From contig NC_091134.1 of the NCBI RefSeq assembly GCF_041381155.1, positions 1,546,001 to 1,610,000 on the forward strand: a stretch of DNA of 64,000 nucleotides, given 5' to 3'. Origin of the DNA: Argopecten irradians (taxonomy: Eukaryota > Mollusca > Bivalvia > Pectinida > Pectinidae). This document shows, in pieces, positions 884 to 62,616 of the stretch (position 1 is its first letter; each line of letters starts with the position of its first letter). The position numbers and the translations under genes were made by a program. Under the pieces are notes generated by a model. It saw only the letters and a program-made list of their open reading frames with translations. It was not told the DNA's origin and searched no databases.

Positions 884-3800
884 TCAGGTAACTAGTTCAG
901 ATTTCAGCAGCTGTAACAGATAGCTACCAACATCTTCATCCTGAAAAAAATGTGAGGTGATTTCAGTATTTTTATAATTATTATAATTCAAATAAGAAAT
1001 AAATACCATTACAGTTTTATGGAACCTGGGCAGTACTCAATGAGAAGGGACGGTAATCGCCACCTTTCAGTTCCTAACTGGTGCATTAAAATCAAAGGGA
1101 CCACTAGGTGAGACTATTTTTTACATTTTTACAAATAACAATGAAGCAACATAATTCTGAATTTGTTGTAGTTCATCCTTTATTCAAACAAAACCAACAT
1201 TATTGACAAATCCACAATAATGATAAATCTTCTGTTTGATATCATATAAATTCCTATACAAGCTGAACGATTACACAGGGCCCAGTTCATCAATATTTTA
1301 AACTTAAGTTAAAGTTACCTCATACGACCAGGACACAAGGACAGACTTGGACTCCTCATCTCCAGACACTTGGACAAGGACTGAATCGGAAATTGTGATA
1401 CTGCCATCGGAGGAGTAGTGCGTCGGAAAATCCTTCAGTTGGCTGTAAGAAATGTTAAAACAATTTAAGCTATATATACAATACATATGGTATCACAATG
1501 ACTGTAATGCTGTAATTTTCACATTATTATAGGATATCTATGTTTGTTTGCGAAGCACAAAAAAACCTTTGGATCGGCACATAATTTTTTTTTTTATTTT
1601 TTTTAATGTTTTAAGTTATCAAACTTACATTTAATAATAGTGTAGACATGATGTTAAAGGCCCACTACCTTTCCGAAACGGCTTTTAATTTTTAAAACGG
1701 GAATGTAAAACAAGATCGATAATTTTGCAGAGTCTTTAAAATTATTAACTTACCGTTAATACTACATTTGTCATCACCTTCTGAACAATTTAATTAAAAT
1801 AAATAAAATGTTTATTTTCATAACGCGGGTCGTCCTAAATACCGCGCGGTAGTTGACTATGACTACGCCAGACGGCAAGACAGCGAGTTGACTCTCCACT
1901 GTTTTCATATATTACGCAGGAAATCTTGCATATGTTTGGTGTTGTAATCTTATTTTAGGTCATCGGTATGCATTTTCTGATGTTATTAATGTTTTTTAAG
2001 AAACCTTTATAAGTTACTCCGGAGAGGTAATGGGCCTTTAACTGCCAGATCTCCTTGTGGTACTTACCTCTTCACCAGCTGGTATATCTTATCCGCTGTA
2101 CCTGTGGTGGGTCCTTCCTCGTCAAACGACAGTGTTGACGTAAACCGTAGCTGGTGCTCTGCCAGACCAAAATCCTTCAGCGCATCAGCTGGATCTATCA
2201 GTTGTAACTTCTGCATTACAAACAAAACAGATTATCAATGATAAGTGTATGATAGTTCTTACATATATGTATGTCTTTGACATATTGATATTAATGAGAT
2301 ATTTAAAAAAAAAAAAATTCATAAAACAAATAATAATTTTATCTATAATTGAACTAGAAGGCCTCCGAATAAATGACTGAACCACTAGGGAATCAGACTC
2401 TACAGTAAATTAGTCCCTATTAATTTACAATGAAAATACATGTAATTCATATACCATGTGATTCTCGATAACCTTAATGTGGTACTAATATCTCCAGTGG
2501 TGATGGATGGTCACTCTTTTTAATCTTACCGCTGAAATGACGTTACATTCCATCACCAATACTCTTACACAAACATAATCATCTATCAGGTGGTACGTGA
2601 ATTATTCTCATTATATGCTACTTCATATAGGTAATATAGGTAATATACAGTAGCTCCTATTTTCATACAATATGATACCTGGATGTGTAGACACTTACAC
2701 TTCCCTTCATCACGAGAGCACCGTGTAAAACCCTCGGCCTCTTGGCATCAGGTGGCAGTAGGCCTGTGGAGAGGTAGGAAAAACTTACATTTCATACTAC
2801 ATGTATGTAAATCCTATAGAGATACAGTGTCATTGAATTAAAAGAAATTAGGAACACAAATTATCATCACAAATGATTTATTCATCCAAAGAGAATGACA
2901 TGATGAATTAAAGTTTTGACTTTATCGTTAATAGGAACATTAAGCTATTAAATAGAATTAAGATTTTAATTTGAACAAGACACATGGTTTTTCTTAATCT
3001 GAACAAAAAAATAACATTTTACGGGTTTGATCAGTGAGTTTCCACCGTCAGAGAGACTGGAGAAAACCAGTTCTTAGTATTAGGTTGTTACCTATAAAGT
3101 TAGACTTACCGACTTTAGAGGCTTCCCTTTTCAGTAAAGACAATGAGATATCTATAATGTTCGACTTACCGACTTTAGAGGCTTCCCTCTTCAGTAAAGA
3201 CAATGAGATATCTATAATGTTAGACTTACCGACTTTAGAGGCTTCCCTTTTCAGTAAAGACAATGAGATATCTATAATGTTCAACTTACCGACTTTAGAG
3301 GCTTCCCTCTTCAGTAAAGACAATGAGATATATCTATAATGTTCAACTTACCGACTTTAGAGGCTTCCCTCTTTAGTAAAGATAATGAGATATCTACAGG
3401 TATGTTGTGTTTCGTCTCCATCACAGCTGTCTCACCATTGGCTGGCATGAAACAGTCAATACCTGTCAGGTAAAGAAAAACATAAATAGGACGGTGTCCT
3501 CCCAAAATATATGTAAAACACTGTGTTTATATAAAATTAAATACCTAATGGGTCACCAAAACTTCATAGGGCAAAGTTCTCAAAAAACTGAACATCTTAA
3601 CACTCTTAAAGCTCCCATCTTTGTGAAAACTAAACAGGGAGACGATTACATGCATATAAATACACTTATTAAATGTTTCGGAAAAAAAACAAATTATGAA
3701 AGTTTATAATTATTATCACAAAATAACATTATCATATTACCATATGTTATTTAGCTTATTAAACATCTTGAGTTTGCACAACTGATTCAGAAAGAATTTC

Positions 3801-16628: not shown

Positions 16629-18740
16629 ATGGTTCCCACTGCCCTGGACAGGTATGAAATTTACAGAGCCTTTATAATAACATAACTATTACCCTTGTTA
16701 AAACAGATAGGACTCATTGTCACATTTAACCTACTCACATTAGCCTAACTCGATTTGCCCTCTTCTACTTCCAGAATATAACTTCCGTTCACTCGATTGT
16801 AGCTCTTCTTCTTCTGGAAGCTCTTCCGTCTCCGTCTATAGGCTGGAGGATCTTCTGAGAAGACTTCTCTTCTTAGAAGAGCGCAAATCGAGTTGAGCTA
16901 GTGTGTCCAACACAATAAGAAAAGATAGTCAAAGCAAAAGAATTCTCACGAAATATGGCCTAAGTACGCTAAGTAGTTTTGATCTTCCGAAGATGTCAAT
17001 TCTCATGTTGATTAGCCTGGTGCATATGAGTTAAGATTGATATACACTTGTATACTAAGAAGACGTTTGTATTATATGCAGATTCACAATTGTTCGTTTT
17101 TCGTATACCCGATTTTGGCCTGTAAGCACGAAGCTGGGCGAATACTTAAAACCCCACTGTTACAAATGTAAACGAATGAAGATTAGGATTCATGTCTGGC
17201 TGGTAATTTAAGTGATCAGATTTAGTGATATTTTAAAATAAAATATATACATATATACATTTTTAATCTATCAAGGAGTTCATTGTCACACGACCTCGAG
17301 ACAAAAGGTTACTCCATTGTTCCGGGAGTGGTATCAAAAGAAGATTGTGATAGCTACACCCGACAGTACAAAGAATGGGTGGAGAAGTTTGGAGACGACC
17401 CCCCTTTCAGCCATGACTCGCTGATGCACTACTACAGAGTTGGTCATTTCGATGCCACGTGGAGAGTTCGACTAAAATCAAAGCCTGTGTTTGCCTCTTT
17501 GTGGAGAACAGAAAAGCTGCTTTGTAGTATGGATGGCATAGCCATAGGGATACCACCGGAACTCGGTAATGTATGACGGAAAACACATGAGACAGCTCAG
17601 AAATATTGAATCGGTTCAAATAGATAAGTACTATTTTTCAGTAATAAGTGCGTGATGTTGAGAAAAGGAGAACATTATCCTCCTCGATGCATGTTAACGT
17701 TATGAGATTGCATGAAGATACATTATACGAAACACATTTTAAACAAACTTCACTATAAGCTACGTTGTTGAAGAAAAAGCAAGGGACTGAAGTATCGATA
17801 ACTGGCCGGTTGAGGTCAATAAAATAGCTTGGCTCACAATGTATGGTTATCAAACATTTTAATGATCTCATTTATCTGCTTTGATAGTTTTAAAGCATGT
17901 TTCCAATGAACAATTAACCGTGTTTTATGCATCTGATGGATAGACATGAAAATATGTTCAAAGAGTTAATTTTCGTAATGAAAGCAATCACTGATACAAA
18001 GTATTGTTGCCATTAAAATAGGCGGAGGGAAGTACAGAAGTGAGGATACAAACTGGTTTCACCTTGACCAAGGAAAGACGAGGAAAGGATTACATTGTTA
18101 TCAAGGAGCTGTATACCTGGAGGAGACTACACAGGGCGATCATTGTCTGAGACTTATTGAAAAGTCTCATCTTTATCACGACAGATTCCAGGAAGCTTTT
18201 CCTGACGCTATGGTCCTCGAAGACGAGGCAAATGAGGAAGAGTTCTTCCCTTTAAAGGAAGAATGGATTGCTTGGTATAAAGAACAAGGTTGCACCGAAA
18301 GGATAATTGAGGTTCCGAAGGGCGGAATGGTCGTATGGGACTCACGTACGGTCCATGACGCTGTTTTACCAAAACGAGGCAGGAGCAATTCAGATAGATG
18401 GCGCTTTGTCGTTTTCGTCTGCATGGCACCGGCCATTTGGGCAACTGATGAGGATTACAAGACAAAGAAATTCGCATATGATAATTTCCGTAGTACCGCT
18501 CATTGGCCTTCCCAGAAAAATATAGTGTTCAGATCAACAACCGGAAATCCATATACCGAACACCGGAAGCATATCTATGCTGTGGATACGATGCCAGATA
18601 TTGCAGCAACAAAAGAAGCTAAACTGTTAGCCGGGCTTGACCGTTATGATTTCAATGATGGCACCCCGAACGATCCTGGGTGGAGACCAACCTGGGACAA
18701 ATCGTCCGTCTTCTATCCTCGGTACAGTGGTATGGCTTAA
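16629..18740 (+). CDS. phytanoyl-CoA dioxygenase (PhyH) domain protein, 3 predicted exons
   Basis: Fe(II)/2-oxoglutarate-dependent oxygenase of the PhyH-like superfamily; substrate unknown. Exons 16629-16651, 17276-17565 and 18022-18740 total 1032 nt (343 aa). Visible features: GYSIVPGVVSKEDC at the N-terminus, typical of PhyH folds; metal-ligand pair H118-L-D120 (WFHLD); distal H216 (RTVHDAV); Arg230/Arg232 (DRWRF) as candidates for 2-oxoglutarate binding. The frame from 17283 opens with TTG, not ATG, and has no upstream in-frame ATG before a stop, so the start must come from an upstream exon. The ATG at 16629 (MVPTALDR) ends in CAG|GTATGA in phase 2 and joins a TCAAG|G acceptor at 17275/17276 exactly in frame. 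Exons 2 and 3 are firm; exon 1 is a prediction. Possible poly(A) signals AATAAA at 18767 and 18809. Confidence 0.86.
16741..16900. mobile_element. 160-bp palindromic element in the first PhyH-like intron
   Basis: Ends TAGCCTAACTCGATTTGC and GCGCAAATCGAGTTGAGCTA are inverted matches with few differences; the arms continue through CTCTTCTA/TAGAAGAG. Foldback MITE-like with no coding capacity. It lies between predicted exons 1 and 2. Confidence 0.65.
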
Positions 18741-20280: not shown

Positions 20281-21558
20281 TCACTTTCTACATACTGAAC
20301 AGTGAGACATAAGTTGACCATACAGCTTTGTTAATTCTCTCCGGAATTTGCTGTCCATGAAGCCATACACCAGCGGGTTTATGGCGTTGTTCAGGAAAAT
20401 CATCCAACGAATGAACAGATCCAGGGCTCCATAATTGTCCGTGAAGCTCTGGTACAGGGATTTGTTTACATTCCGAATCAACGTGACTACAAGATAGGGG
20501 AGATAACCCCCAAACGATATTATTGAAACAACAAGAAATATCATAGTCAGGTTTATACTTTTGTCAAGTGCTTTTCGTTTCTTTTTCTTCAATGTATCAA
20601 GGTTTCTGATTTCTGCTCCGGCCTTTGGTTGATTTTTGAATTCATTGACATTGCTTTGGACAAAATTGCCGTTGGGATATAACGTCGTAGCATGACTTTC
20701 ATGAGATAAGTTAGATTTGGAAGTTTCGGGTGTCGAAACAGCGCTTGTAATAACTCCAGAGTCGTTGTCTTGGCGTTGCCTGTTGCCATGTTTGTTGCCA
20801 TCATCTGCTGACGATAGTGAGACATCTCTTTGTTTAGATTCTTTAACGCGAGGCTCGGTTGCCAAAAACTCATCAGTTTTTCTGAGTTTGTTTTTATGAG
20901 TATAAACTTTTCTTCCGATCAAAGTATAGAGTACCACTGCAATGATCAAGAGGACCACGAAAACAAAAAAGACAAACCCCCGGTATACTTTTATGAGCGT
21001 TGAGGTTTTGTACTGGTCTAAAACTGTACATTCATATCCAATGAGTGAATGAGTTTTAGTTATCCTCTCATTGATGCCATAGATAATGGCAACGGGTATA
21101 ATGATCACCGCTATCACAAGAAGACACAATGAAGCACATATCACACGGGTAATCTTTAACGTGAACTGAGCACGTGTGGCTTGACACACCTTCCGATAAC
21201 GTTCTATGGCGATACAGTCCAGAAGTAGAAGAGAGTATGCTCCAACAAAGTAGCTAAGTGTCCTGGCACCTTTACAGAAAGCCGCTGACTGTACAGAGTA
21301 CGTGTGTATGATGATGTAAAGAGACATCGGTATACCGAGTACACATCCTAGGAAATCCACGGCAGCTAAACACTGGATAAACGTCTTGTATATGTTTGAC
21401 TTATATTTTAGTAAATACACCAGGAATACGTGCATGTTTCCAACAGTTCCAGTTGCACACAGGCATATCAAAAACACAACAATGGGGATACCATTCGATT
21501 TAAATTCATTCCAATCTTCATCCTCCAACGAAAATGTAACATTCGTGGATAAGTTCAT
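20281..21558 (-). CDS. class A (rhodopsin-like) G-protein-coupled receptor, orphan, single exon
   Basis: 425 aa, seven-transmembrane receptor at the cell surface; probably peptide- or amine-type, ligand not identifiable. Short N-terminus with two N-glycosylation sequons (NLS, NVT). TM1 has GN (TVGNMHVF), TM2 LAAVD, TM3 starts with the conserved Cys (AFCKGA) and ends with ERY in place of DRY. ECL2 Cys (YECTVLDQ) can pair with it. TM5 precedes a long Ser/Thr- and charge-rich third intracellular loop of about 110 residues. TM6 reads ISFGGYLPY, so the usual CWxP is G-Y-L-P. TM7 has NPLVY followed by GFMDSKFRREL. The C-tail ends HCSVCRK, with cysteines that could be palmitoylated. ATG start and stop are clear; the gene is intronless across the domain, common in molluscan GPCR expansions. 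The missing toggle Trp is worth noting. Confidence 0.93.
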   Translation of the reverse strand: MNLSTNVTFSLEDEDWNEFKSNGIPIVVFLICLCATGTVGNMHVFLVYLLKYKSNIYKTFIQCLAAVDFLGCVLGIPMSLYIIIHTYSVQSAAFCKGARTLSYFVGAYSLLLLDCIAIERYRKVCQATRAQFTLKITRVICASLCLLVIAVIIIPVAIIYGINERITKTHSLIGYECTVLDQYKTSTLIKVYRGFVFFVFVVLLIIAVVLYTLIGRKVYTHKNKLRKTDEFLATEPRVKESKQRDVSLSSADDGNKHGNRQRQDNDSGVITSAVSTPETSKSNLSHESHATTLYPNGNFVQSNVNEFKNQPKAGAEIRNLDTLKKKKRKALDKSINLTMIFLVVSIISFGGYLPYLVVTLIRNVNKSLYQSFTDNYGALDLFIRWMIFLNNAINPLVYGFMDSKFRRELTKLYGQLMSHCSVCRK

Positions 21559-21956: not shown

Positions 21957-22509
21957 AGGGACAATTCAATGAAGCTAATTCTGTTTCATAACCACGAAGC
22001 AAAATATGACATAAATGTATAGTTCCATATTCCTTATGAAACATATAACAAGAAATATTTTCAAATTCCACGACATTGTTAAGTATTATGAATAATACCG
22101 TTGAAATTCCAAATCGTTGATCGATACGATTAAGCAGGTATAGAATGTATGCTGTACCCATACCCGAGCCAAAGTCGTGTATTTTAATCAAATGCAACAC
22201 AGAACCACTGAGGAGTTGGTGAAATAATATTTAGACATGAACATGCACCTAATAAGGTAAACACACTACTGTAAGAGCGATTTGAGTAATTTTAGACAAA
22301 AAAATGCTTTACTGCACTGGCAAGGGCAAGGGCTCAGTATACAAGGCGTCCGACCACAATGTGTAATGGCGGACAACAAGTGAGTTTGAACATTTCCCAT
22401 ACATTTCAATACAGTGTGCTCTGGCATATCACAGTAAAACCAACTAAAGAACTGGTTTGTATCTGATATATATGCAAATTTTAATGTGCTGTTAGACTGA
22501 ATTGTCCCT
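21957..22509. mobile_element. TTAA-type MITE, family 3 (AGGGACAATTCA ends)
   Basis: Perfect 12-bp inverted ends AGGGACAATTCA / TGAATTGTCCCT enclose 553 bp. The right flank is TTAA (22510-22513); the left flank is TTAC (21953-21956), one base off. That suggests a piggyBac-like TTAA duplication with one later mutation. No transposase visible. Confidence 0.65.
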
Positions 22510-24005: not shown

Positions 24006-24839
24006 ATACCTTATATCATTTTGTCTACCTTCTTCAGAACATTGCATTATTAGTATGTCTTTTCTGATTTGTGATTATGATTTGTTTATCAGTATAATGT
24101 ATGTGCTGTGTTATTACTTCCCTTTGTAGGTTCACACAATAATCCCTATTTAGCGTATAAAACACCAAGCATACACGGGGATTGACAGTGATAAGACACT
24201 GAAACCATCTAAATTTGTATCGATATCGCTATACTGTATGTGATTTCTTTTTATTAGCATGAAATGTTATAGTCCTGCCTATATTATTAGGCATTTTTTA
24301 GTTGCAACACAAAATAGTATAATGATATAGGCAGGTTTAGCGGACTAGAACTATTATTACTCAGTAACAGATTTTTTGCACTACGTAAAAGGATAAACTG
24401 AACTTCAGTATTAATTATGACTTCATTATTTTGTGAATAACTGGTGCCGTTTTACTCGTACACCTATGACGTCACCATCAACACCTAACCGCAGATGGAG
24501 ACAACTCTGTAAAATGCAAACACGGAAAAGAGACAGTAATGCGTATGTTCATACATTTTTTTAACCAATTTACAATGTTGAGTCCGTTATGTAAGCAGTC
24601 TCTACATAACGTTAGATAAAAAACAACTTATTACATACACAATATGATTTCATTTATTTTCCAACAGAACAAGACCCTCGTTAATGCCACATGTCAATAG
24701 TTCTATAAACGTCTTTTCTATGTATTTCATTTATTGTTGATTTCTCATATGTTCGATGATTTAAAAACTTCCGAACATGTTGATAATTCTTTTATCTGTT
24801 GTATCATTTACCATCGGCTGTCTATATGTTGTGGCGCCT

Positions 24840-25815
24840 CTAGCGCCGGCGCCAAGTTGGCCTAGTTGGGCGTCTTCGTCTACGAGAACCAAGCCAAGGT
24901 TGTAGACATGGACACGGCAGGTGGTTGCATATACAAGAAGGCATTTTCCTGCCTGGTCTGATGGCTGTGGCAAAAATAAAAATAAACCCATAAAAAGCAA
25001 TAAAACAAAAAGAATACAGCCAAATTTTTTAATCTAAATTATTAAGTTTTTTCCTTGAGCTTTTGCCAAATCTTCCTATCTCCCTCATCAACTTAATACT
25101 TAAGCAGTTTGGATATGGCGAAACCTACAAATGATCTGACCAAACTAGTATGTGATACTTTAATTACCATGCACATATTCTGAGACTGAAAGTAAAAATA
25201 AAACACAGTCTGCAGTGATATTATTTTTATATTTGATATGGCAAAGTAGAAGACTACATTTTACTTTTTTTCTTCAAATTATTCTGTGCTGACAAAACAA
25301 AATGTTAATGTCCATAAGCTATCTTGTATTCCTCCTTGTCAACACTACCGCTTATTCTGACATAGTGTTCGTTGGATTGTCGAGTTATGGTGCTCTAACG
25401 TACTGTAGTATCTAGCACCAAATAAGTCAAACTGTGAGTAACAAATCAGGACATTTCACATCATTATTCAAATACATCTGCTATCGTTTGTTAATAACAA
25501 AGGATGTAAAAGGTCCTTGGTACATGTAAGCAAATACTGACCGGGAGGATCAACTTCTCCTATAACGACATCTGTTGCAATTATGAGTTCATCATGACAA
25601 CATTTCATATTACATATACAGTGTACCTTCTAATAGTACAATTGCATGTTTTTTACTGAAAGTCTTGCTTGAAGTTACGTTTATTGAACATTTTAAACAA
25701 CATCAACATCAAAAACAATGATATGAACAGGCAAAATACGAATCGACTTGCCCTGTACATCCGAGGCGCACACCATCAGTGCCATGAACATCACAAATAT
25801 GTATATAGGTCTCAT
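24840..25815 (-). CDS. secreted cationic Cys/Arg-rich peptide (paralog 3), GC-AG intron
   Basis: Two exons, 25752-25815 and 24840-24964, encode 62 aa. Exon 1 gives the leader MRPIYIFVMFMALMVCASDV, a clear hydrophobic signal peptide. Exon 2 gives a mature region with CICNHLPCPC followed by an Arg-rich tail (GSRRRRRPTRPTWRRR-stop); about +12 with no acidic residue. The splice is phase 1 as in the two paralogs, but the donor is G|GCAAGT; the acceptor is TTTTTGCCACAG. Reading straight through exon 1 instead gives a 40-residue product that loses the cationic part. Upstream, CTTTATAAAC serves as a TATA-like box and TTGATTGATGCAGCA recurs in paralog 1. Secreted and probably membrane-active or antimicrobial by composition (inference); no named family recognised. 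The match of both exons to paralog 2 makes the model credible. Confidence 0.72.
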
Positions 25816-27069
25816 TGTTGTATTCTATGTTTACCTTTAATTGTAAGTGTTTATAAAGGTTTGCTATCACAGTAAACAGAGGAAAATCATTCATTACCCA
25901 AATTCTGTGAATCCTGCTGCATCAATCAAGTAAGAGAATGAAAAGGAAGCGATCAGGTTTAATTTGTCTGTTTATGATGGAGAGCAGAGATCAGGTAAAC
26001 TCTAGATAAGCTTGTGTACTTGGAAAAAGAAATGTTATTGTCTTATGAGTCTTAAAAGACTAGATAAACTCTTACAGACTATTATCACATGTCTGATATC
26101 TTATATCGACTAGCTATGTTAAAAATCTCTTTCTTTTCTATCCAATCATGTCAAATAAATAATTTTGTATTAACTTTCTATGGTTATTTTTATAATTAGT
26201 TAATAAAATGCTCTGAAACTTTTCATTAAAATAGAAGTTTTCAAATATTGATGTTTTGGGTGAAGGTGGATCCATAATAATCGCCGTCATGAGTAAAGAA
26301 AATAATTAATGACAAGCTAAATAGTTATAACCGCTGACTTTCGAAAAATATTATATCATTTAAGGATGTATTTTTTAAGTTATGGGTTGGAATTGAATTG
26401 TTATTTACTTTGGAGGATATTGGCGAATCAAGAAAAAATAAAACTTTATGCTTTGGGAGACTGATGCATACTCGTGTTTTGTCTTCTTATACAAAATAAT
26501 AATATACGCCACCCGGTCACACCCGGGCAAACCAGTCGTCCCACTAATTTTATGCTGAGCGCTAAGCAGGGACAGAAAGTACCATTTTATAGACTATGGT
26601 GTGCCTAGACCGGGGACAGAACCCAGAGCCTTGCGCACAGAGTGAGCACTCAACCGAAGGCCAAAAGTGAGGTAGTGTCAAGGGAGACGGTGGGAAGAAG
26701 AACGTTATTAGGAAGAAAGAAAAGCTAAGACCCTAAATTCAATTGCCCTTTACAATCATGCAATAGGGGCAACAGGTACAATTCTAACACCCTACCGACC
26801 GAGGTGATTTAGAAAGACGACAGAACTGTAGGTTGTTGTTATTTTTTTAAATGATAGTTCTTCAACGATGTTCCTCCTTCCAACTCCTCAATACACTTTA
26901 TTTGTATTTTGTATGATTTAAAAAAAAAGTTGCCATCAATAATCAGCAATAATCAACTCTATAAATTACTGCTAATGATCACATGTAAACCGTCAATAGT
27001 AATTTAATATCATGTTATCATTAACCTAAAACAGGTTTTGTTCGATGAAAATGACTTGGTAAAAGTAAT
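25816..27069. other. paralog 3 promoter and repeat-rich spacer
   Basis: The first ~170 bp are the paralog 3 upstream region. From about 26455 to 26815 lies an interspersed repeat (cacccgggcaaaccagtcgtcccac, tagactatggtgtgcct, gaccggggacagaaccc) with relatives at 49.5-49.83 and 58.47-58.57 kb. Nothing coding seen. Confidence 0.5.
26455..26815. repeat. interspersed repeat related to 49.5 and 58.5 kb copies
   Basis: Contains CCAGTCGTCCCACT, TTTTATAGACTATGGTGTG and GGGAGACG-GGGAAGAAG blocks that recur at 49553-49830 in a different order. A related piece is at 58470-58570 on the other strand. Permuted block order suggests a larger parent element with deletions; family unknown. Confidence 0.5.
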
Positions 27070-27304
27070 GAATATTTTTGATACTGAAAAATATCGTTTT
27101 TCCAGATAAAAAGTTGGGAACTGTGTTAAATATTTTATTTCTCCTAGGATGTTGATTCCCGTTGGTCAAAATTAACATTTTATTTCCCTTCCCCGTGTCT
27201 TCTTTGATTGATGAAGCAGAATGTGGATAATGAATGATCCCGTCGGCATTAGAGCTAACCTACATAAATACGCCTGGCAAGATTTAAAATCATAGAACAC
27301 AACA
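27070..27304 (+). promoter_or_regulatory. conserved promoter of cationic-peptide paralog 1
   Basis: About 230 bp aligns to the region upstream of paralog 2 (30428-30680, other strand). Shared blocks are TCTCCTAGGATGTTGATT, TTGGTCAAA-TTAACAT, TTTGATTGATGAA, GTGGAT-AT-AATGATCCCGTCG and the TATA-like ATAAATACGCCTGG. The paralog 3 upstream region retains TTGATTGATG and AATGAATGAT. Conservation exceeds that of the mature coding part, suggesting shared regulation. Confidence 0.65.
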
Positions 27305-27719
27305 ATGAGGCCCGTATACTTATTGGCATTGTTCATGGTACTGATGGTGTGCGCATCGGGAGTACAAGGTATGTAATTTATTTCTCTTTAACATAACGCA
27401 AAAGTTTTTACTGCTAATATTTTAAGAAATATTTCCGCAAATGATATTTCTACAACACTACCGTTAACGTTGTATGATGTAGTTTTATGATGTATAAATT
27501 AGCATGTATACATTGTACGTGTCATAACGGAGATATACGTAGAATGTTTTCATGTCGTATTTATTGACTAAGATGGTGTTTTGTGTTGTTATTGCAGCCA
27601 TCAAACATGGCTGTGTTCCTTCACCGCTCCGCAAAAAGCCAGGACGTGATATTCGTACACGAACACGCCCAACGACATTCCAACATGGCGGCCACAAGCG
27701 CCCAACTAGGATAATATAA
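27305..27719 (+). CDS. secreted cationic Pro/Arg-rich peptide (paralog 1)
   Basis: Exons 27305-27368 and 27598-27719 (61 aa). Leader MRPVYLLALFMVLMVCASGV is almost identical to paralog 2. The mature part has a single Cys (KHGCVPSPLRKKPG), many Arg/Thr/Pro (IRTRTRPTTFQ, GGHKRPTRII-stop) and about +10 net charge. Intron phase 1, GTATGT donor, ATTGCAG acceptor. Promoter about 45 bp upstream: CATAAATACGCCTGG, plus a CCGTTGGTCAAAATTAAC block conserved in paralog 2. Poly(A) signal AATAAA at 27959. It lacks the C-x-C-x4-C-x-C core of its two neighbours, so it may have become a linear peptide. Short cationic bivalve antimicrobials such as myticalins are a comparison, not an assignment. Confidence 0.78.
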
Positions 27720-29612
27720 CAATTACAATTACTTCAAATATGCTTATATTGGGAGGACAAACAATTTCTGAAGAGAAAACGTGTATTGTTTGTGTAACCA
27801 GCAGGGATTTTGAAACTCGTGCTCATTTTAAACAAAACATACATGTTTAGACAATTAATTTTATCCATATTACATTGTGTGAGCAGCATAAACTAACAGG
27901 CCTTATATAAAAAAGTTTGACAACAATACGTGTATGAGGAATTGGATTACAATTTTACAATAAAGTAATAAAACGTTTTGAGTAAAATTATTAATATATG
28001 TAGCAAACTGTTATGGTCCTTAACTTGGTTTTAATTCGTCACTTTTTTAATTTACAAATTAAAAAGAATGAAATAAATCTTATGAACTATAACACAAGTA
28101 TACGAACTAAAACCACCCTCTCGACATACAAATCGTTCATGGTTTCTTTAAAATAGAATTTTCCAGCAAATGTGTTTACATATATAGCATTATGGTGATC
28201 TGAAAGCCAAGTTTTTTGTTTCTAGATTTTTATATTCATATAGTAAGGAATGCACAAATAAGTCCACTCTGTGATAAAAGTTAAGTGATAGAGTTCTGCG
28301 CAGAAAACTTTACTAACCTACTTTTATTAGGTTATAAATTTGTATATGACAAAATTTCGCAAGTGGAAAAACATACAAACGTGGCGTTCAGAATAACATA
28401 TTTTATATGTGTAATTGGAGTACACTTTGCGTTTTTAATAATGTAGTGTTTTTTTCTATTGACCTTGTTCAAATATGTACTTGATAGCATGTAGTAGTCA
28501 AGATAGAAAATTTAGCCATCGGTGTCTATCTTTACTCCTACCTTTGCTGTTCAAATAAAAGAAAATCTCCAATATTATCTATTTATCAGAGAAACAGTTT
28601 TATGCTATAATTGTTTATAATTTGGAGAAGTCATTAATAAATGACAATAACAACAAATATCTGTCTCCGTTATTGTTCTGTAAATTATATAGCAAACATA
28701 TAGCTGCGGTCACTTTGCTCCGTTGAATGCGAGAGATTTGACATTTATTTATACTAGTAAATAGATTTATATCTGTCTGTTATCTGTTATTTTAATCAAT
28801 CGTATCCTGGACCCCTCTGAGTACGGGTTGTTTACATGTAAACAAAAGACACAGAGCAACGCTAGCTTGTCTGTGTGATTGAACTCCAACAAGTTTTTGT
28901 AAGAAAATCAAAGTAACCCATAAACATTTTTAAAATAAAGTTAAAGTTATCTGTTGGGAAAATTTTGACGTGATTTTTTTAGTTATCTATCGAAACCAGA
29001 GTTTTGACGATTAAAACTGTAAAAATCATTCAAAGGTACGGACAAACATGCATGATGCTTATGCACTGTAAGTCTGTAATAGTTCTGTATGTGTAGAAGA
29101 AAACATTTTTGAATACGTCATTTCGTAATTACTAATATCGCTATAAGACTGTTAAACGAAATTGTAGACCACAGCTTGGATTCTTGTCTTGACAGCGTGT
29201 GTTCATTTCACTGGACAGTAGACGCACATGTCATATATTGGCAGTAATGCTCTTATTTTGCGCCATAAAACGGAAACCTATGTATTGTCAGTATTTTTAT
29301 TTGTCAAAATGTTGGTAACGTTTGGGGGTAAAGATTATATCAAAAGCTCACTATGCATCATGAGCATAAAAATTACGGTACTGATAACTTTAAGTCCCTA
29401 AAGATTTGCTTATACTTATATGTTGGACATTTTACAGGAAAAAATAATAAAACAAATCGTCTAAAATATATTTATTTTTGGTTTTAAATCATTGTTCGTT
29501 GCATAAAAACATGTTTCGTCTTCCACGAATGCTTTCTTAACCGTATAGTACAAGAAGTAAGTGTGTTCGTTGTGTAATGTATTATCTTGGTTGGACATTT
29601 GGGTGACGCCAG
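27720..29612. other. spacer between convergent peptide paralogs 1 and 2
   Basis: 3' flanks of the two genes and AT-rich unique sequence. No further leader exon (ATGAGGCC / CTGATGGTGTGCGC) was found here. Confidence 0.5.
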
Positions 29613-30427
29613 TTACCGTCCTCTCGGGAAAGTTCGTCTATTTCGCCTACGGCTTGTCCATGAATTACTGCAGGGACACGGCGAACGAACACAGACACAA
29701 AAGCGGCTACTCCTTCTGCGAGTTTTGGCGACTGAAACAACAAAATAAAACAGTCATAACATTGAAATATGTAACTTAAAGATTGACCTATGAAAACACC
29801 TACATGTATGTAGATCAACAACGAATCGTACACTGCCTTTTTGCAAGCTCGCCTGCCACGTCTAAACGATAGCATTGCTGACAATATATCATTATATCTC
29901 TCGTTCTCTTTTATGGCAACTTGTTTTATTAAAAGAAATAAGCAAATAAAAAGTTCCATGCTACATATAGACATCGAGACCATCGCTATGCTGTTACAAA
30001 AAGGACCGCGGAGACCGAGTGGTTAATATGAACTGACATATTACCACAAGTCCTCCACCTCTGGGTTACGAGTTCGAATCCAATGTGGGACAGTTGCCAG
30101 ATATTGAACGCTGGACATTGGTTTGTGTCCGGGTACTCCGCCTTTCACCCACCAACAAACCTGGCACGTCCTTACATGACCTTGACTGAGAATAGAACGT
30201 TAAATTTATAAAACCAAAACTATTTTAATGAGTGTTTAAAAAAGGAAAACAATAGCAAATCGACAGTTTTATGAAACGTATCCAGCTGAACTGATATGAT
30301 TCTTTGAAAAAAAAAATTAAAATAACTTTTGCTTTACGTTAAAGAGAAATAAAAGATGCTTACCTTGTAGCCCCGATGCGCACACCATCAGTACCACGAA
30401 CAATGCCAATAAGTATACGGGCCTCAT
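29613..30427 (-). CDS. secreted cationic Cys/Arg-rich peptide (paralog 2)
   Basis: Exons 30364-30427 and 29613-29731 (60 aa). Leader MRPVYLLALFVVLMVCASGL; the mature part carries FCVCVRSPCPCSNSW, the same C-x-C-x4-C-x-C core as paralog 3, flanked by Arg-rich segments (AKTRRRSSR and SRRRNRRTFPRGR-stop), about +13 with no acidic residue. Intron phase 1, GTAAGC donor, TTGTTTCAG acceptor. Promoter has TATATAAATACGCCTGG, then upstream GATCCCGTCGACATT and ATTGGTCAAATTAAC, all shared with paralog 1 over roughly 250 bp. It converges tail to tail with paralog 1. AATAAA on the minus strand at 29471-29476 is a candidate poly(A) signal. Four clustered cysteines could form two disulfides or bind metal; function unproven. 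Confidence 0.78.
30003..30215 (+). mobile_element. tRNA-derived SINE
   Basis: The head shows an A-box-like GACCGAGTGGTTAA and a good B box (GAGTTCGAATCC) at tRNA-like spacing. Body about 100 bp, then a 3' tail ACGTCCTTACATGACCTTGACTG-AGAATAGAACGTTAAA that resembles the tail at 16.0 kb in reverse (TTAACGTCCTATTAACAGC). It sits in the paralog 2 intron, between its two exons. Single-copy degeneracy suggests an old insertion. Confidence 0.75.
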
Positions 30428-30680
30428 TATTGTATCCTGTGTTTTCAAATCTTACCAGGCGTATTTATATAGGTAAGTTTTAATGTCGACGGGATCATTT
30501 ATCATCCACATGTATTCTGAGAAACTTTCATCAATCAAATAAGACAAGAACATGTACTATGTTAATTTGACCAATAGAAATCAACATCCTAGGAGATTTA
30601 AAAAATGAAACACATTTCTTTTTATTTTAAAGAGCGATTTTTTTCAGTATTATCAGCAAGTAATTACCTTGATACATAAA
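30428..30680 (-). promoter_or_regulatory. conserved promoter of cationic-peptide paralog 2
   Basis: Reverse-strand counterpart of the paralog 1 promoter, with TATATAAATACGCC about 50 bp upstream of the ATG and an inverted CCAAT box (ATTGGTCAAA) further up. Same order and spacing of blocks as at 27.1-27.3 kb. Confidence 0.65.
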
Positions 30681-37394: not shown

Positions 37395-40300
37395 TTAAGC
37401 ATTGGTGAGTAAGGTCAAGATGTCATGCGCAAGGACACCGGAAGTCTGACTCCGGTTGTCCCATGTATGGTTGACCTCTTGATAAGGAAAGAAATGGCAA
37501 TTGCTGAGTCCTTCGAGGGGTGCCTTGAAGGAAATGTGTCCCTGTTCACGCACGTCGAGTCCTGCGGCATTGATTTCCCCCGTACGGAGGGCCTCATACA
37601 GGTCGGTATAGTTTATGGAACGACCCCTTGATGCGTCTATTAAAATTGCACTGTTTTTCATACGCTTAAAACTGTCTTTGTTGAACAAATTCCGTGCGTT
37701 TTGTGTATCTGGTTTACAGCTGAGACACAGAATGTCCGATTCTTCCAAAACTTGTTCTATTGGGCAGTATTCCGCACTGATGTCTTCAGCTGATGGTATT
37801 TTGGAAATGTCGTGGTAGACAATGCGACTGACTCCCATGTGGCTTAGTCGCTTAGCAACAGCATGACCGACCTTCCCCAAGCCAACAATCCCTAGCGTCT
37901 TGCCCTGAAATACTAGGTGGTTTTGGTTGGCATCTGTCACTTCTGTAACACTTCTGGTACTGGAATCTGAAAAAGAACGAAACAATTACAAATGTATGTA
38001 CGATTTAATGTTTTCTTCGATACCAAGATACACTTTGATAATAAGCAGGACGTTTTATCAAACCCTAAGACTATAAAGATGAGTTATCATTTGTAACATG
38101 CGTTTGGTTTAAATCAACAAATACATGCCATACAATGTAGAATCTACCACAAAACTGGTCAATTTGACATGTACCTAAAACTGGTACCAATCATTACAAA
38201 AGGTTTATCCAAACAAGAAATGTAAACTCGTGTTCCAAGAAACGAGAGAAAATCCATACATCCTCTATATTAATACAGTGACCTATATAAAACGCGTTCC
38301 GTTTAGGATTGAGTATCATAGCTACATGTAGTTAATGTGTTTAAACAGGTATTCAATTACGTTAAACAAGATATTCCTATTACTGATAAATGTCACTGCA
38401 GGTCAATAACTACACGATTTGGTCTGTGTGGCAGAGCTGACAGCATCTTCGTTAAAGGATTGAAACGATAATCAATGGCGATGCGACCTAGCTAGTGCGT
38501 ATGTATCGATGTTATCATTGGGGTGTCCGTATATTTGTCGTGAGGGAATTCGGAATCAAACCTATCCATAAATCCTTCACTCTTCATAACACAAATGATT
38601 CTACTATAACTTTATGTGAAGTACGTGCGTTCACTGTATCGTTTATGTGAGTTGTGTGTTTATTGTTGGTCTCCTTGTGATATTCGTATTTACCATTTTT
38701 GAGTGAAGGTCATCTTTAGGTACACTTTCCCTACGTCTTTGCTTGACATTGTGATATTTTTGACTTGTCTATCAGTGGTACATGTATCATTTTTGAAGTA
38801 CAATCTGTCAAATCCATGACTTTTATCGTACGTTTGTAGTTTGTATTCTTATTCGTAGCGTAGTATCAAGCAGGAGACCCCAGTTTTGGTACGATTGTAA
38901 TATTAACCAATATAATATTCTAATATGTTCAAATAAGCAGTAACTTTCTTATGACTTTATCTTTATCATAGGACTGAAAAAATGTCTGCCCCCAAAACGA
39001 CAAAATAAGGTGGGTGTCAAGATAGACAGAGTATTTTCTTTTGCAATAATGCAGTATTGACGAAAATGAATTAGTAGCAATTCCTCCAATACAATAATAG
39101 TACAAGTAAACGGCCTCAAAGTTACCTGATGATGTTGCTTTGAGAAGAATGGCGATGGTTAGATCGACGACTGCTTCCATGGATATTTTAGGTGGAGTAG
39201 CGATCTTGATTCCACGTCGATTACATTCATCAACATCGATATGGCTGAGGTTCTCAGATATCGTACCGACGACCTTGAGATTGGGACCTGTAAAGACAGC
39301 CAAATACCATATGTAAAAATGTGTGTGGCTGGTCTATTAATAAATAGAATAACAACAACACAAAAACATATCTAATATCAAAATAATACCGGGGATAGCC
39401 TAACCATATACGGACAGACGAACTCCGGCGGAAATAGCGTCATCAGTCTTACATAACCTAAAAACAAACAGGCCACTGATCACATGTCAGTAGAGTTCTT
39501 TATATTAGTAGAATGGTTGTAAAACCTGAACGACAACGACTTACAAAATGTAACTGGTATTGTGTGATGGATGGAATCCTCACCTCATTGACCGCAAAGT
39601 GTTTATAAATGTTTTATAATATAGTGAAATGTTTTTATATTAAAGTGTTGCTGCTGTTGACTCTTGGTTAAATGCATTAAAATTCCATGACCTTTAAATC
39701 AAGCATCTGGCTAATTGTCACGTGCGAGGAGTCCTTGATTGAGTGAAATATGAGATGTTAAAATTAATTAATTTCACCTTTTTAAGACCTTGAACAGCTA
39801 AAACTGACATAAGACGTGATTTCACACACGGTTGTAGACAAACTAAAGGAACTTTTATGGTAATAATATCAGTATATGCTAAGTGTATTTTCACACTGAT
39901 CATGCCAGAAGCCGAGGTGGTGCTAGTGGTATTTGGCACGCGAGCATGTTTGTATCCAGTTATGCGGCCATCACCCTGGTAATATTAGATCGTACATGGA
40001 CATTTATTGGCCAGTCTTAGGAGTTCAAATCTAACGTACCAAAACAACACCCCAAACAAGCTGTTTATGAAATTACGGACGAATGGAATTAATGTCACGT
40101 TTCTTATCTAACCCAGGTGAACGTCTGATAATAATTACAGAATAACATAAGTGTATCTACATGACGGTGTGATTCAGGTGTTGCTCCTATAAGTCACGTA
40201 CGCTCTCCCAGTACAAATAGATCTATTAATTAGCATATCCCTATCAATGGGCGATGACGTAAATGGATACTACGGGTCGCGAACAATGGCGATCCACCTG

Positions 40301-46300: not shown

Positions 46301-47393
46301 AAACGATACCCAACGTAGAATACAATGAAATAATCAGATCAAATAAAACAATCAAATCCAGACATTCCGAACAAAAACGTTGGGGGAATGTCAAGTCAAG
46401 AAATGAGCCAGTGATTACATTGAAATGTTAAAGTATTTTACATATAGACAAATGCCAGGTTATATCATTAAAATATGAACCGAGTTATCGGATCAACATT
46501 TTTTTCTTCATTTTTAACGAAATTGATATATCTAAAAAATTAATAAAAAGTATAGCTTTATACTTTTCAATCTTATTTGGATTTATGATATTGGAACACA
46601 TAAATTTATATAATATTTATGGAGTTTCAAGGTGTCAAGATACCAAATGATTACCGCTAGGTATATAATTAAACAATAATTTATACTAATCAGTTAATTA
46701 ATGATTGTCATCACGTACGTGGTTAATTAATGATCCAATAAACTCATGCATTCATTATTTTCTGAGTGAACATCACTGTCCATGTCTATTACTGATCATA
46801 TAGTGTCAAAAACAACGACATTCATAACGTTATGAAACTCATACAGAACATATACATATACTGTATATACTAAGTGTCAAGCTTATTAGGCCTAATTGAA
46901 TTTAAACCGGCACTTTGAAATCAAGGACCCTACAAATAAAATGAAATAATGGCACTGAACGAATAAATTTAAACGGTATACATATGTACTACATGTTAAT
47001 GTTGAGGAATTAACACATGCACACATGTACAAAATAACACATGTAAACTAAGCCTGGATATATGATGTACTTATATAAACGTTATCGGGATTAGAGGACG
47101 TGAGTGAACCGACATAAAGTCATTAAAGAATATGTACAAAACACTTAAGTCTAGTGTTTACAAAACTTATCATCGAGATTAAGAATGTTACCTGCTGAGT
47201 CGAGGAGTTCTTTGTCGATTTCGTCCACAGCCCGACACCAGATAGCGTCAACACCCTGCACCATTTTGACAAGCTCTCCTCTGGGAACAGCTTGATTTCC
47301 GTCCCAAATGGCAACATTGCAAGCTTTGAGTAAGGTATCAACTCCTTTTTGTGGAATATTATGGGTGATGTATACTTTCGGCCGGTGTTTCAT
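37395..47393 (-). CDS. GRHPR-like D-2-hydroxyacid dehydrogenase paralog A, predicted pseudoenzyme
   Basis: Exons 47192-47393, 39126-39287 and 37395-37966 sum to 936 nt (311 aa), all splices phase 1. ATG start (MKHRPKVYITHNIP); ends LLTNA-stop. It is a paralog of the gene at 56.3-62.5 kb. The Rossmann motif is kept (G150-L-G152-K-V-G155) with Asp at the end of beta-2 (VYHD). The catalytic Arg235 (ASRG) remains. However, the Glu of LDVxxPEP is Gly264 (LDVREQGH), the His of LPHxGS is Tyr283 (FPYQEV), and the substrate loop SVGYDH reads SENLSH. Redox catalysis by the family mechanism therefore looks impossible; cofactor binding may persist. The frame is intact, so it seems maintained rather than decaying. 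The first intron is about 7.9 kb; the last exon fuses what are two exons in the paralog. TATA-like TATTTATAA near 47466-47475. Confidence 0.9.
37967..39125. other. intron 2 of GRHPR-like A
   Basis: Unique AT-rich intron; no feature recognised. Confidence 0.5.
40374..40540. repeat. 24-bp minisatellite, 7 copies
   Basis: Unit GGGTATTACCCCTAAAGGGC-CAAA repeated at 40374, 40398, 40422, 40446, 40470, 40494 and 40518 with single-base variants (CCCC/TCCT). Period divisible by 3 so it stays open in one frame, but nothing suggests translation. Confidence 0.9.
41720..42057. mobile_element. TTAA-flanked MITE, family 2 copy b
   Basis: 338 bp, starts AGTGAATAGTCGGGCAAAG and ends CTTGCCCGACTGTTCACT, flanked by TTAA at 41716-41719 and 42058-42061. 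Opposite orientation to copies a and c. Intronic. Confidence 0.85.
43440..43640. repeat. 36-bp tandem repeat, 5-6 copies
   Basis: Unit TTCGTATTTTATCCAGACAA-GCGCATCCCTAAAACG with moderate divergence; in intron 1 of GRHPR-like A. Confidence 0.8.
44391..45680. repeat. tandem segmental duplication (~0.8 kb) with 75-base identical core
   Basis: Blocks at 44391-44900 and 45179-45680 align in the same orientation, offset 788 bp. The core at 44459-44533 equals 45247-45321 over 75 bases (starts ACGTATACGTACGTAGCG, ends GAGAATGGCGTGATC). The preceding CACGTGTGTT, the following GAAATCGGCCGAATTATTA, and CGACACAACAGAGGCCCGA are also shared. Flanking parts have diverged more. Confidence 0.85.
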
Positions 47394-47464
47394 CTTGAAA
47401 GCTCCAGTCAGATTCTCGGTCCTAACGTAAACACAGCCAAGTCGGAGTTTGTTTTGCTCGACGC

Positions 47465-47476
47465 GTTATAAATAGG
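47465..47476 (-). promoter_or_regulatory. TATA-like box of GRHPR-like A
   Basis: Minus strand CCTATTTATAACGCG about 75 bases upstream of the ATG. Comparable AT box (TATAAATAG) exists in the promoter of the paralog. Confidence 0.4.
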
Positions 47477-56304: not shown

Positions 56305-59300
56305 TTAGTTCACAAGACCATACGGGTCCTCGCCATTTTTAACAGACACTATATTCCTTGCAGCAATCTCGGCCATGTGGTTTCTGGAATCCCACGTGTT
56401 GCTTCCCATATGGGGAAGTATGACACAGTTCTGTAGTCCCACAAGTGGGTGATCATGGGGTAGCGGTTCCGGTTCAGTGACGTCCAATCCAGCAGCATAT
56501 ATTTCACCGGAAGTGAGCGCCTCGTAGAGATCATCATGCTGCACAACGCCTCCTCGACCACTGTTTATCAAGATGGCCGTCTTCTTCATCTTTTTGAAAG
56601 TTTCCTTGTTAAACTTGTGCCTTGTGGCGGCCGTCAGATTGCAGCATATGATCACCATGTCCGATTCTGTTACCATGGTATCAAAATCGGTAAATTCTGC
56701 ATCTACTTCTTTAGCATAGCTCACCTGAAATGATAAGTTCGACAGCTTCAAACGGGATCACGCACGGACAAATTATTAGCTGTACGTATATATGCATGGA
56801 TAAGAGGCTTGACCGGTATTATGACCACAACTTTTTAGTGGTTGCGATGTATCGTTTGAAACCCGTGTAGGGCGGGTATCACCTCCTAAACCCGACACGT
56901 CCCTAAACACAGGGATATGGCACAAAAAATTTAACCAACAGTATACATACTGTATGTATAATATAGTAAAATACATACATATATATACTGTTGGTGAAAA
57001 ATTTTCGTGCCAGGTCCCTGTGTCCCTAAATGACCCCACTGCCAACAGGGCATTTCATCAAACAAACCAAACAACAATTCTGTTCCTCTCATGTTTATGA
57101 CAGACATATTTATCAAGACGACTTCAGTAATATTAAGAATTGGAGTTGGGTCTTAAGCTGATGACTAACATTAAAATGATAATTCCTTCTTTAATTATGA
57201 ACTAACAGTTTCATTGGAAAAGTATTAATCGCTTTCTCACACATCTGTGCCGAATGACGTAATGTTAAATACCAATTGGTTTTAGATTAAATAGAAGTTG
57301 GCAATACATATTTATGATGAACAGATGGACTGTGTTACTGGACTATAAATGTATAATTATATGTTAAATTATATCTTAATATCTATCAAAAACATTTCAC
57401 ATAATTAATTTGTACCTCGTGAACATCGTGGTATAGGATACGACGGACTCCAAACGGCTTCACACGCTTGGCCACTCCATAACCGATACGGCCAAGTCCG
57501 AGGATCCCGATGGTCCGGTCGGTCAGTTCCACCCCACATAACCACATCGGCTTCCAAGGACCCCACTCACCATTCTTTACAGAGTCCACTCCTATCAAAA
57601 AGTAACATTTCAATCATGTACATGTATGTACAGATGTTGTTCTCGACTCGGTATATTAGTCCTGAAAACCTACATTCCTATCGATAGATTAATGTCGCAA
57701 TACACTATAATTGATGACTACATTGCTATGAAGTTAGGATATTAATCATATCATCGAAAATAGAAGATTAGAAGATAACATAATATTTTGTTTTTGTGGA
57801 AAAACAAAGAGGTGTTTGGGGTACGTTATTACATAGTTATCGGATGTCTTTAGGCTCTCTTGCGGTTTCATTTTGCTGTCTATGTTGAAAACATAAAAAA
57901 GTTTTCAAAGATTCGTTTTATATAATATCAAAACCCTTTTTATTTAGTGAGTAGCTTATATTAATTAATTACCTTCTACCAGCCGCCTGGCAGTCAGTAG
58001 TAACAGAGATAGGGTCAGTTCGGCCACACTGTCGGTAGAGACATTCGGAGTGTTGGCCACAACAATCTTTCTCTTTCGGCACTCCTCTGTGTCTATGTGG
58101 TCATACCCTACAGACATTGTGGTGATCACCTTCAGCCTCGACCCTACAACAAACCAACACACCCATAAGTAGAATTAGACATATCCACTTTAATTGATAA
58201 ATAAGAAGGAACATTAAACATACATGCAGCCACAGAACAAAATAACTGACGACATTTTATTGTGCTGTTTGGTCCTAATTAGTATAGGGTAATGTGATTT
58301 GTGTCGAGACAAGCAAAGACTCGTGAGTAATCCATGCTGAATGTAATGAAATGAAACGAAAGGAAATGAAATGGACCTATGATGAATAATTTAGATATAA
58401 ATTGACCACTAACCAGATATATGCATTAAGATTATTACGGTTGACCTTGAGTTGAGCGCTCGCACCTGTAAGCGGGGCTCTGGGGTTTGTTCCCTGGCCG
58501 AGACGCATTTTGAGCAGTCTATGAAGTGAGACGACTGGTTAGCCCGTTGTTAGCATAATGTAACCGGGCTAGATGTATATATTTGGCGGTGTGCTTCAGT
58601 GAGATAGTACATGTACTATACAAATGGCGAATATATTATTACATAGACATACATAAGGTCAATTATCTTATTGTAATATCGCATGTTTATACCTATGTTA
58701 TAGAGAACAGGAGGGCTGGTTCTTATCAACAATTGTACGAAGAACAAGATGCCAGTCCAAGGTCAGCGAGCAAAGGTTAACCAAGGTCAGCAATCATTGT
58801 GCTTGCAGTAAGAGATACACTTATTTTGAGGTTTGCAATGTGACGCATTCTTTATTCCCCGGCCCTCTTTCAAACCGAGTACCGTTTTGATATCACGGCT
58901 ATAGCCGATGTTTTCAAAGTAATTTTTGTTTATGATACAATGAGCTTAACATTTTTCCTCGTGTAATGGTACAGTGAAATATCACGCGGTGGGAGAAGTC
59001 AAGAATGGCACAGCACCAAGTCTGTAGACTTTCGGTTAACGGAAAGCTACTGAAAGCAAGAGTTGTTAATTGTTACACGATATAGTCCATATTTCATTTC
59101 TATGTAAATACAATGTTAGGAACCGTTTAGAACTGCTTGTGCAGTTATAATCCTAAGATATAAAACCCATTTGATTACACTTACTTAATGGCCAAATCGA
59201 ATTCCTTTTCGTATGATTTAGTGATTGTTATATATATAAATAAGAAAGTGATTATACTTAAGTCTGTGATGATGAGTGATAGCGCCGATATCATTTCTAA

Positions 59301-62467: not shown

Positions 62468-62616
62468 TTTAGAATTTGTCTTCGGGTATAGCGTATATCA
62501 ATGTAAGTGTTCCCTTTAGATATCGAATCAGCTCTGGTATTCTAGGTACTGGTCCTGTATAATATAGCGGAGATTCGGTAATACCCCTTGCTATTACGAA
62601 AGACACAGCTGACACG

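Follow-up and report, generated by a model that had tools for sequence, protein, structure and literature searches.

Gene models at the locus

We analysed a stretch of 64,000 nucleotides (nt) from the bay scallop Argopecten irradians (assembly GCF_041381155.1, contig NC_091134.1, positions 1,546,001 to 1,610,000 of the forward strand), which is called the window below and is numbered from its first letter. Between positions 24840 and 30427 it contains three small two-exon genes that appear to encode secreted, very basic peptides. The genes had been predicted from the letters of the window alone, with a bivalve correctly guessed as the source; we rebuilt the models from the window, and the coordinates and strands proposed for all three held. 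Judged on the genomic sequence, the predicted genes are genuine as gene models.

Gene 1 lies on the minus strand. Its exon 1 (25752–25815), the leader of which matches those of the other two copies, runs from the start codon through a 21-residue signal peptide to the first base of codon 22. The intron (24965–25751) is 787 nt long and of the GC-AG type, with the donor GCAAGT directly following CAGG at the end of the exon. Exon 2 (24840–24964), which was re-found in a whole-genome search, encodes the mature peptide with a C-I-C-x3-P-C-P-C core and an Arg/Pro-rich tail and ends with the stop codon TAG. A TATA-like box is located 41 nt before the ATG (25850–25856; inspection and promoter alignment), and inspection revealed the first AATAAA past the stop at 24730–24735 and a second at 24653–24658.

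Gene 2 is on the plus strand, divergent from gene 1. Its signal peptide exon (27305–27368) is followed by a GT-AG intron of 229 nt (27369–27597) and by exon 2 (27598–27719), encoding a basic mature peptide with a single cysteine and ending with TAA. The TATA-like box CATAAATA is found 42 nt before the ATG (27263–27270), again by inspection and promoter alignment, and an AATAAA was seen at 27959–27964. Exon 1 belongs to a promoter-leader cassette (27081–27409) that is 80% identical to the corresponding cassette of gene 3 (30321–30650, minus strand).

Gene 3, on the minus strand and convergent with gene 2, has a signal peptide exon at 30364–30427, a GT-AG intron of 632 nt (29732–30363) and an exon 2 (29613–29731) coding for a mature peptide with the core C-V-C-V-R-S-P-C-P-C and an Arg-rich tail that ends in RGR before the stop codon TAA. 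Its TATA box, TATATAAATA, is 44 nt before the ATG (30462–30471), and an AATAAA was recognised by inspection at 29471–29476. The intron contains a dispersed repeat (approximately 30003–30219), which is present in at least 39 other places over about 205–230 bases with 83–86% identity; by eye, it includes a stretch similar to a tRNA B-box.

In each gene exon 1 stops one base into codon 22, giving phase-1 introns at the same codon, exactly as had been predicted. A TATA-like box 41–44 nt before the ATG and an AATAAA 105–240 nt past the stop were recognised by inspection in all three. The G+C content of the second exons is 51–55%, compared with 35% for the window. If the mature parts are taken to begin at residue 22, those of genes 1, 2 and 3 have 41, 40 and 39 residues and contain 4, 1 and 4 cysteines; their net charges were computed as +12, +10 and +13, in good agreement with the +10 to +13 originally proposed. 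Proline accounts for 17.1, 12.5 and 7.7% of the residues, respectively, and arginine for 17.5–30.8%. The hydropathy of the leaders over residues 4–18 is 2.4–2.7, on which basis they are signal-like and we treat them as putative signal peptides. The general sequence features of host-defence peptides, a signal-like leader and a short basic mature part, are thus present.

Kinship of the second exons

The mature parts of genes 1 and 3 both keep the C-x-C-x3-P-C-P-C core, a tryptophan four residues past the last cysteine, and an S-R-R-R motif. They match each other in the window by tblastn (E about 1.6e-6) without any help of exon 1, and their protein alignment score was reached by none of 5000 shuffles. 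When 519,916 six-frame codons from the window and 196 kb of its flanks were scanned, the C-x-C-x3-P-C-P-C pattern occurred twice, in genes 1 and 3.

The mature protein of gene 2 did not resemble those of genes 1 and 3 significantly (1691 and 656 of 5000 shuffles, respectively, reached the observed scores). At the DNA level, its second exon has a 38-bp match to that of gene 1, which 0 of 2000 dinucleotide shuffles reached, and a 19-bp match, in the cysteine region, to that of gene 3 (6 of 2000); the second exons of genes 1 and 3 are weakly alike (67 of 2000). The kinship of gene 2 to the other genes is therefore drawn from the exon 2 DNA matches and that of genes 1 and 3 from the protein match, and with these two lines combined the three second exons probably share one origin. 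In the DNA match the lone cysteine of gene 2 stands opposite the second cysteine of gene 3; the protein alignment places it opposite the first. A 2-nt gap within the 38-bp match takes the tail of gene 2 out of the gene 1 frame.

It is clear that the three genes have the same anatomy, a common descent and a highly basic charge, and that genes 1 and 3 have the four-cysteine core in common. The original prediction of divergent mature regions is true of gene 2, whereas genes 1 and 3 share the core, the tryptophan and S-R-R-R; similarly, the C-x-C-x4-C-x-C core proposed for the cluster is found in genes 1 and 3 but not in gene 2.

The single cysteine of gene 2 in place of four, its frame change relative to gene 1 and the GC donor of gene 1 could also mean that one or more copies, chiefly gene 2, are decaying pseudogenes, so that functionally the family would consist of one or two genes. 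We consider this unlikely. All three frames are open across both exons, splice signals and a downstream AATAAA are present, and gene 2 shares its conserved promoter with gene 3. Moreover, functional GC donors usually read GCAAGT, as that of gene 1 does. In what follows all three are treated as protein-coding paralogues.

Leaders, promoters and cassette copying

An almost identical leader had been proposed for the whole cluster. This describes genes 2 and 3 well (19 of 21 residues, 90%), whereas the leader of gene 1 is 67% and 57% identical to the other two. The leaders nevertheless retrieve one another in the window by tblastn, with E values of 8.8e-10 (genes 2 and 3), 1.8e-7 (genes 1 and 2) and 1.65e-6 (genes 1 and 3). 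The upstream similarity follows the same pattern: genes 2 and 3 match at 80% identity over 341 columns, between position -224 and 41 nt inside the intron, beyond which matching ends, while the similarity of gene 1 to the other two is short. The element TGATTGAT, which we take to be a possible homeodomain-type site, was observed upstream of all three genes at -113, -100 and -110, inside a conserved promoter stretch, and the TATA region is conserved as well.

In genes 2 and 3, the leader exon is identical at 61 of 64 nt versus 174 of 214 nt upstream (Fisher p 0.005), which suggests selection on the leader. The synonymous divergence (dS) between these genes is 0.07 in the leader and about 1.3 in the alignable mature part, the alignment of which is poor. 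As the gap between leader and mature part is seen also at silent sites, amino-acid selection would not explain it and recent copying or conversion of the cassette would; the contrast looks largely like the result of a recent copying of the promoter-leader cassette, which is most readily explained as duplicated or gene-converted in front of older, already diverged mature exons. The layout originally proposed, a conserved leader with a diversified mature part, is thus present in part, given that genes 1 and 3 conserve the core and that genes 2 and 3 differ at silent sites too.

Copy number and annotation

A 257-base promoter and leader DNA query from gene 3 was searched against the whole assembly (845.8 Mb, 1508 contigs) and found exactly three places, all within the window; at the sensitivity of this one search, no copies beyond the three were detected. 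In addition, tblastn and blastn were extended to 20 loci in the flanks, covering 96 kb to the left of the window and 100 kb to its right (196 kb in total), and gave no further copies, the best DNA match having E 0.004 over 26 bp and the best protein match E 0.09. A genome search with the mature protein of gene 1 retrieved gene 1 only; because it missed gene 3 it must be regarded as insensitive, and the count of three is based on the promoter and leader search together with the flank searches. A possible fourth mature exon at 22343–22311 (minus strand, CILSPCPCQCS, tblastn E 0.016) was rejected, as it lies inside a short inverted-repeat element and has no splice acceptor at the matching place. 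The element itself (21957–22509) is short and similar to miniature inverted-repeat transposable elements, with 12-bp terminal inverted repeats, AGGGACAATTCA, at 21957 and 22498.

None of the three precursors matched a Pfam family. Querying the protein database with gene 3 gave no candidate, and an alignment of all three gave five candidates, none of which reached E 10. For a neighbouring G protein-coupled receptor (GPCR), the same database did yield annotated proteins, from A. irradians, Pecten, Mizuhopecten and Ylistrum; that a database with scallop proteins in it returns none for these genes suggests that they are unannotated there. In a sequence search of the PDB, the mature part of gene 1 had no match and that of gene 3 a single one at chance level (E 1.7). 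None of three leader strings was found in the text of the 5.39 million papers covered, most subscription papers lying outside them. These results support the original view of secreted, cationic and apparently undescribed products, and the genes probably represent an undescribed scallop peptide family, as far as sequence comparison can tell.

Resemblance to arasins

No named family had been recognised in the original prediction. The C-x-C-x3-P-C-P-C core of genes 1 and 3 is, however, shared with arasins 1 and 2 of the spider crab Hyas araneus, members of a family of decapod crustaceans, the sequences of which we took from tables in two reviews (arasin 1 from PMC11678341, arasin 2 from PMC7736402). 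Over the ten-residue core, gene 3 agrees with arasin 2 in eight positions and gene 1 in seven; each agrees with arasin 1 in six. The score of gene 3 against arasin 2 was reached by 1 of 20,000 full shuffles and by 23 of 20,000 in which the cysteines were kept fixed, and that of gene 1 by 81 of 20,000 full shuffles. Against arasin 1, the corresponding full shuffles were 63 of 20,000 for gene 3 and 520 of 20,000 for gene 1.

We also scored 30 published peptides, all of them defence peptides: 22 came from a bivalve table and eight, both arasins included, were chosen from the two reviews after the likeness to arasins had been noticed. For gene 3, arasin 2 ranked first (0 of 2000 shuffles) and arasin 1 second (5 of 2000). 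The order was the same for gene 1 (11 and 53 of 2000), with myticin A in third place (78); for gene 2 no peptide was conspicuous (169 of 2000 at best). Two of the 30 peptides hold the core pattern, and both are arasins; shrimp stylicin 1 has the same cysteine spacing without the prolines.

The likeness extends to an Arg-rich partner segment and roughly to length (37 residues in arasin, 39–41 here). Arasins are defined in the section of PMC11767717 that describes them by an N-terminal Pro/Arg-rich region and a C-terminal cysteine region; in genes 1 and 3 the order is reversed, with the core ahead of the basic tail. The proline content of arasins, 30–32% as printed, is well above that of the scallop peptides, which also lack the arasin PRP motif, and the host is a mollusc and not a decapod. 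Because the order is reversed and proline is low, we call the peptides arasin-like and not arasins. Beyond the cysteine spacing the evidence for the likeness seems moderate, and the two groups may have converged on a loop of ten residues.

For arasin 1, PMC3543460 reports that its four cysteines form two disulfides, that its activity resides in the Pro/Arg-rich half and that the linear, thiol-blocked cysteine half is inactive alone. With the cysteines blocked in the whole peptide, activity was lowered against Gram-negatives only, according to the same paper.

Comparison with other peptide families

The myticalins and modiocalins of mussels are similar to the scallop genes in their conserved leader, variable basic mature part, phase-1 intron and organisation as a small, lineage-restricted multigene family. 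As described in PMC5577615, however, myticalins have signal and mature peptide in one exon, with the coding intron past the mature part, and carry an acidic C-terminal extension after a dibasic site. Here the phase-1 intron splits the two and the precursors end in the basic part, and membership in the myticalins was rejected on both counts. Cysteine is absent from myticalins and modiocalins according to PMC12294457. For proline-rich antimicrobial peptides (AMPs), at least 25% proline is stipulated in Box 1 of PMC7736402; the 7.7–17.1% found here is below this value, so that membership was rejected, while the charge of at least +1 is present.

The same species possesses a big defensin, AiBD, which is likewise a secreted cationic peptide. 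For none of the three genes did mature AiBD rank among the best 8 of the 30 peptides, and its leader showed no convincing similarity (gene 3, 71 of 2000 shuffles in one of 10 leader comparisons; gene 1, 425 of 2000). Big defensins have a hydrophobic N-terminal domain and six cysteines, as given in the relevant passage of PMC3182236; with 4, 1 and 4 mature cysteines and no hydrophobic domain past the leader, the scallop peptides were not assigned to them. The Ap peptide from haemocytes of Argopecten purpuratus, a species of the same genus, is called proline-rich and cationic in the lines on it in PMC11767717. It has no cysteine and no similarity to the three genes (best 308 of 2000 shuffles, gene 2).

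The C-x-C-x4-C-x-C spacing is also that of protegrin. In contrast to the scallop core, which has a proline between the last two cysteines, beta-hairpin AMPs lack proline in their sheets, as stated in PMC13001179. Protegrin precursors carry a cathelin domain (PMC4410394), and these precursors have none.

Proposed function and alternative explanations

On balance, we think that the three are likely to be TATA-driven, protein-coding paralogues that belong to a small family of scallop host-defence peptides, which are secreted and cationic. We infer the defence function from the signal peptide, the short basic mature part, the paralogous cluster and the apparent lineage restriction, all of which would fit it. 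After removal of the signal peptide, at a cleavage point predicted from the sequence, the core of genes 1 and 3 would close two disulfides into a compact loop that stabilises the peptide, while the adjoining Arg-rich tail, in gene 1 also Pro-rich, would bind anionic microbial surfaces and disrupt or cross membranes. The expectation that the tail is the active part is by analogy with arasin 1, which in vitro can largely do without its cysteine half. A linear variant would come from gene 2, which has one cysteine, and the product of gene 3 may be C-terminally amidated because it ends in -RGR.

A number of results speak against this proposal or parts of it. Protein searches, which need exact five-residue words and may miss distant relatives, found no relatives in other species. 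AlphaFold, given two-sequence alignments of genes 1 and 3, returned a mean predicted local distance difference test score (pLDDT) of 54–55 with no strands and no fold or hairpin. With the cysteines fixed, the resemblance of gene 1 to arasin 2 was weak (800 of 20,000 shuffles) and that to arasin 1 was not significant for either gene 1 (4304 of 20,000) or gene 3 (2782 of 20,000), and gene 2 did not resemble the two arasins (382 and 406 of 2000). The leader of genes 1 and 2 was not significantly more conserved than the nearest 100 nt or so upstream (51 of 64 versus 68 of 98, p 0.20). The original prediction had proposed a comparison of non-synonymous divergence (dN) with dS between leader and mature part; dN exceeded dS in none of the six pairwise comparisons (three leader, three mature), the mature alignments being short and near saturation, so that pairwise dN and dS gave no support for positive selection in leaders or mature parts. 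A scan of the 1.5 kb upstream of each gene with two consensus patterns revealed no NF-kB-like site; a role of the NF-kB pathway in big defensin regulation in Argopecten purpuratus is reported in PMC7203481.

The lack of NF-kB-like sites would also agree with secreted peptides that have a signalling, reproductive or shell-matrix role and are basic by chance, an explanation that we regard as improbable. Dibasic sites and -RGR-type ends are also found in neuropeptide precursors, and the scallop peptides have multiple dibasic sites and one -RGR end; a rhodopsin-type GPCR gene is adjacent, although linkage is no evidence of pairing. Repeated amidated units, which are common in neuropeptide precursors, are however absent, the arginine content is high, and the cysteine core ranks nearest to arasins, albeit among peptides that are all defence peptides. 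It is very unlikely that the core binds metal, in the manner of metallothioneins or zinc-binding proteins, instead of forming disulfides, as it does contain the CxC pairs typical of metal-thiolate proteins but has four cysteines only, sits behind signal-like leaders in peptides whose cysteines should be oxidised, as secreted cysteines normally are, and has its counterpart disulfide-bonded in arasin 1. Hardly more credible is an artefact in which a real leader exon was duplicated and chance basic open frames were mistaken for exon 2: the models are built from genomic sequence alone and the exon 2 frames have only about 40 codons, but the second exons of genes 1 and 3 match independently of exon 1, and acceptor and frame agree in all three genes.

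Within the host-defence interpretation, we put forward one further idea, which is speculative and, in our opinion, rather unlikely. The arasin-type core might not be a decapod invention; it would be a module, present in a mollusc in permuted order, that goes back to an early protostome or arose a second time. It would be delivered by a promoter-leader cassette copied between paralogues while the mature exons diverge, sometimes losing the core as in gene 2.

Neighbouring sequences

An intact single-exon gene for a rhodopsin-type GPCR of 425 amino acids lies at 20284–21558 on the minus strand. It has five paralogues on the same chromosome, 50–58% identical, which bear conflicting names (cholecystokinin-like, serotonin 1F-like, No18); the group apparently consists of scallop-expanded receptors with unreliable names. 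Exons resembling D-2-hydroxyacid dehydrogenase were found on the minus strand at 37395–37985 and 56305–56757, both of them covered by the Pfam search, and also at 47151–47465 and 62219–62497, in an apparent tandem array. On the plus strand, 17229–18740 contains phytanoyl-CoA dioxygenase-like exons (PhyH, E 3.1e-5 for the open frame 17982–18737). The open frames at 3031–3347, 59743–60434 and 61171–61542 consist of short tandem repeats and are probably minisatellites, not genes.

Significance

If the three genes are expressed, a major farmed scallop has an apparently undescribed peptide family, which annotation probably missed because the coding exons are tiny. One caution is that mature divergence between paralogues can stem from copying of the leader and not from fast evolution of the mature part. 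The four-cysteine and one-cysteine paralogues can be set side by side as a natural experiment on the role of the core. This arasin-type core is the part that most deserves the attention of specialists, and its occurrence outside crustaceans raises a testable question, deep ancestry versus convergence. If the idea of a permuted arasin-type module were true, scallops would be animals in which a family of defence peptides can be observed changing between linear forms and forms closed by disulfides.

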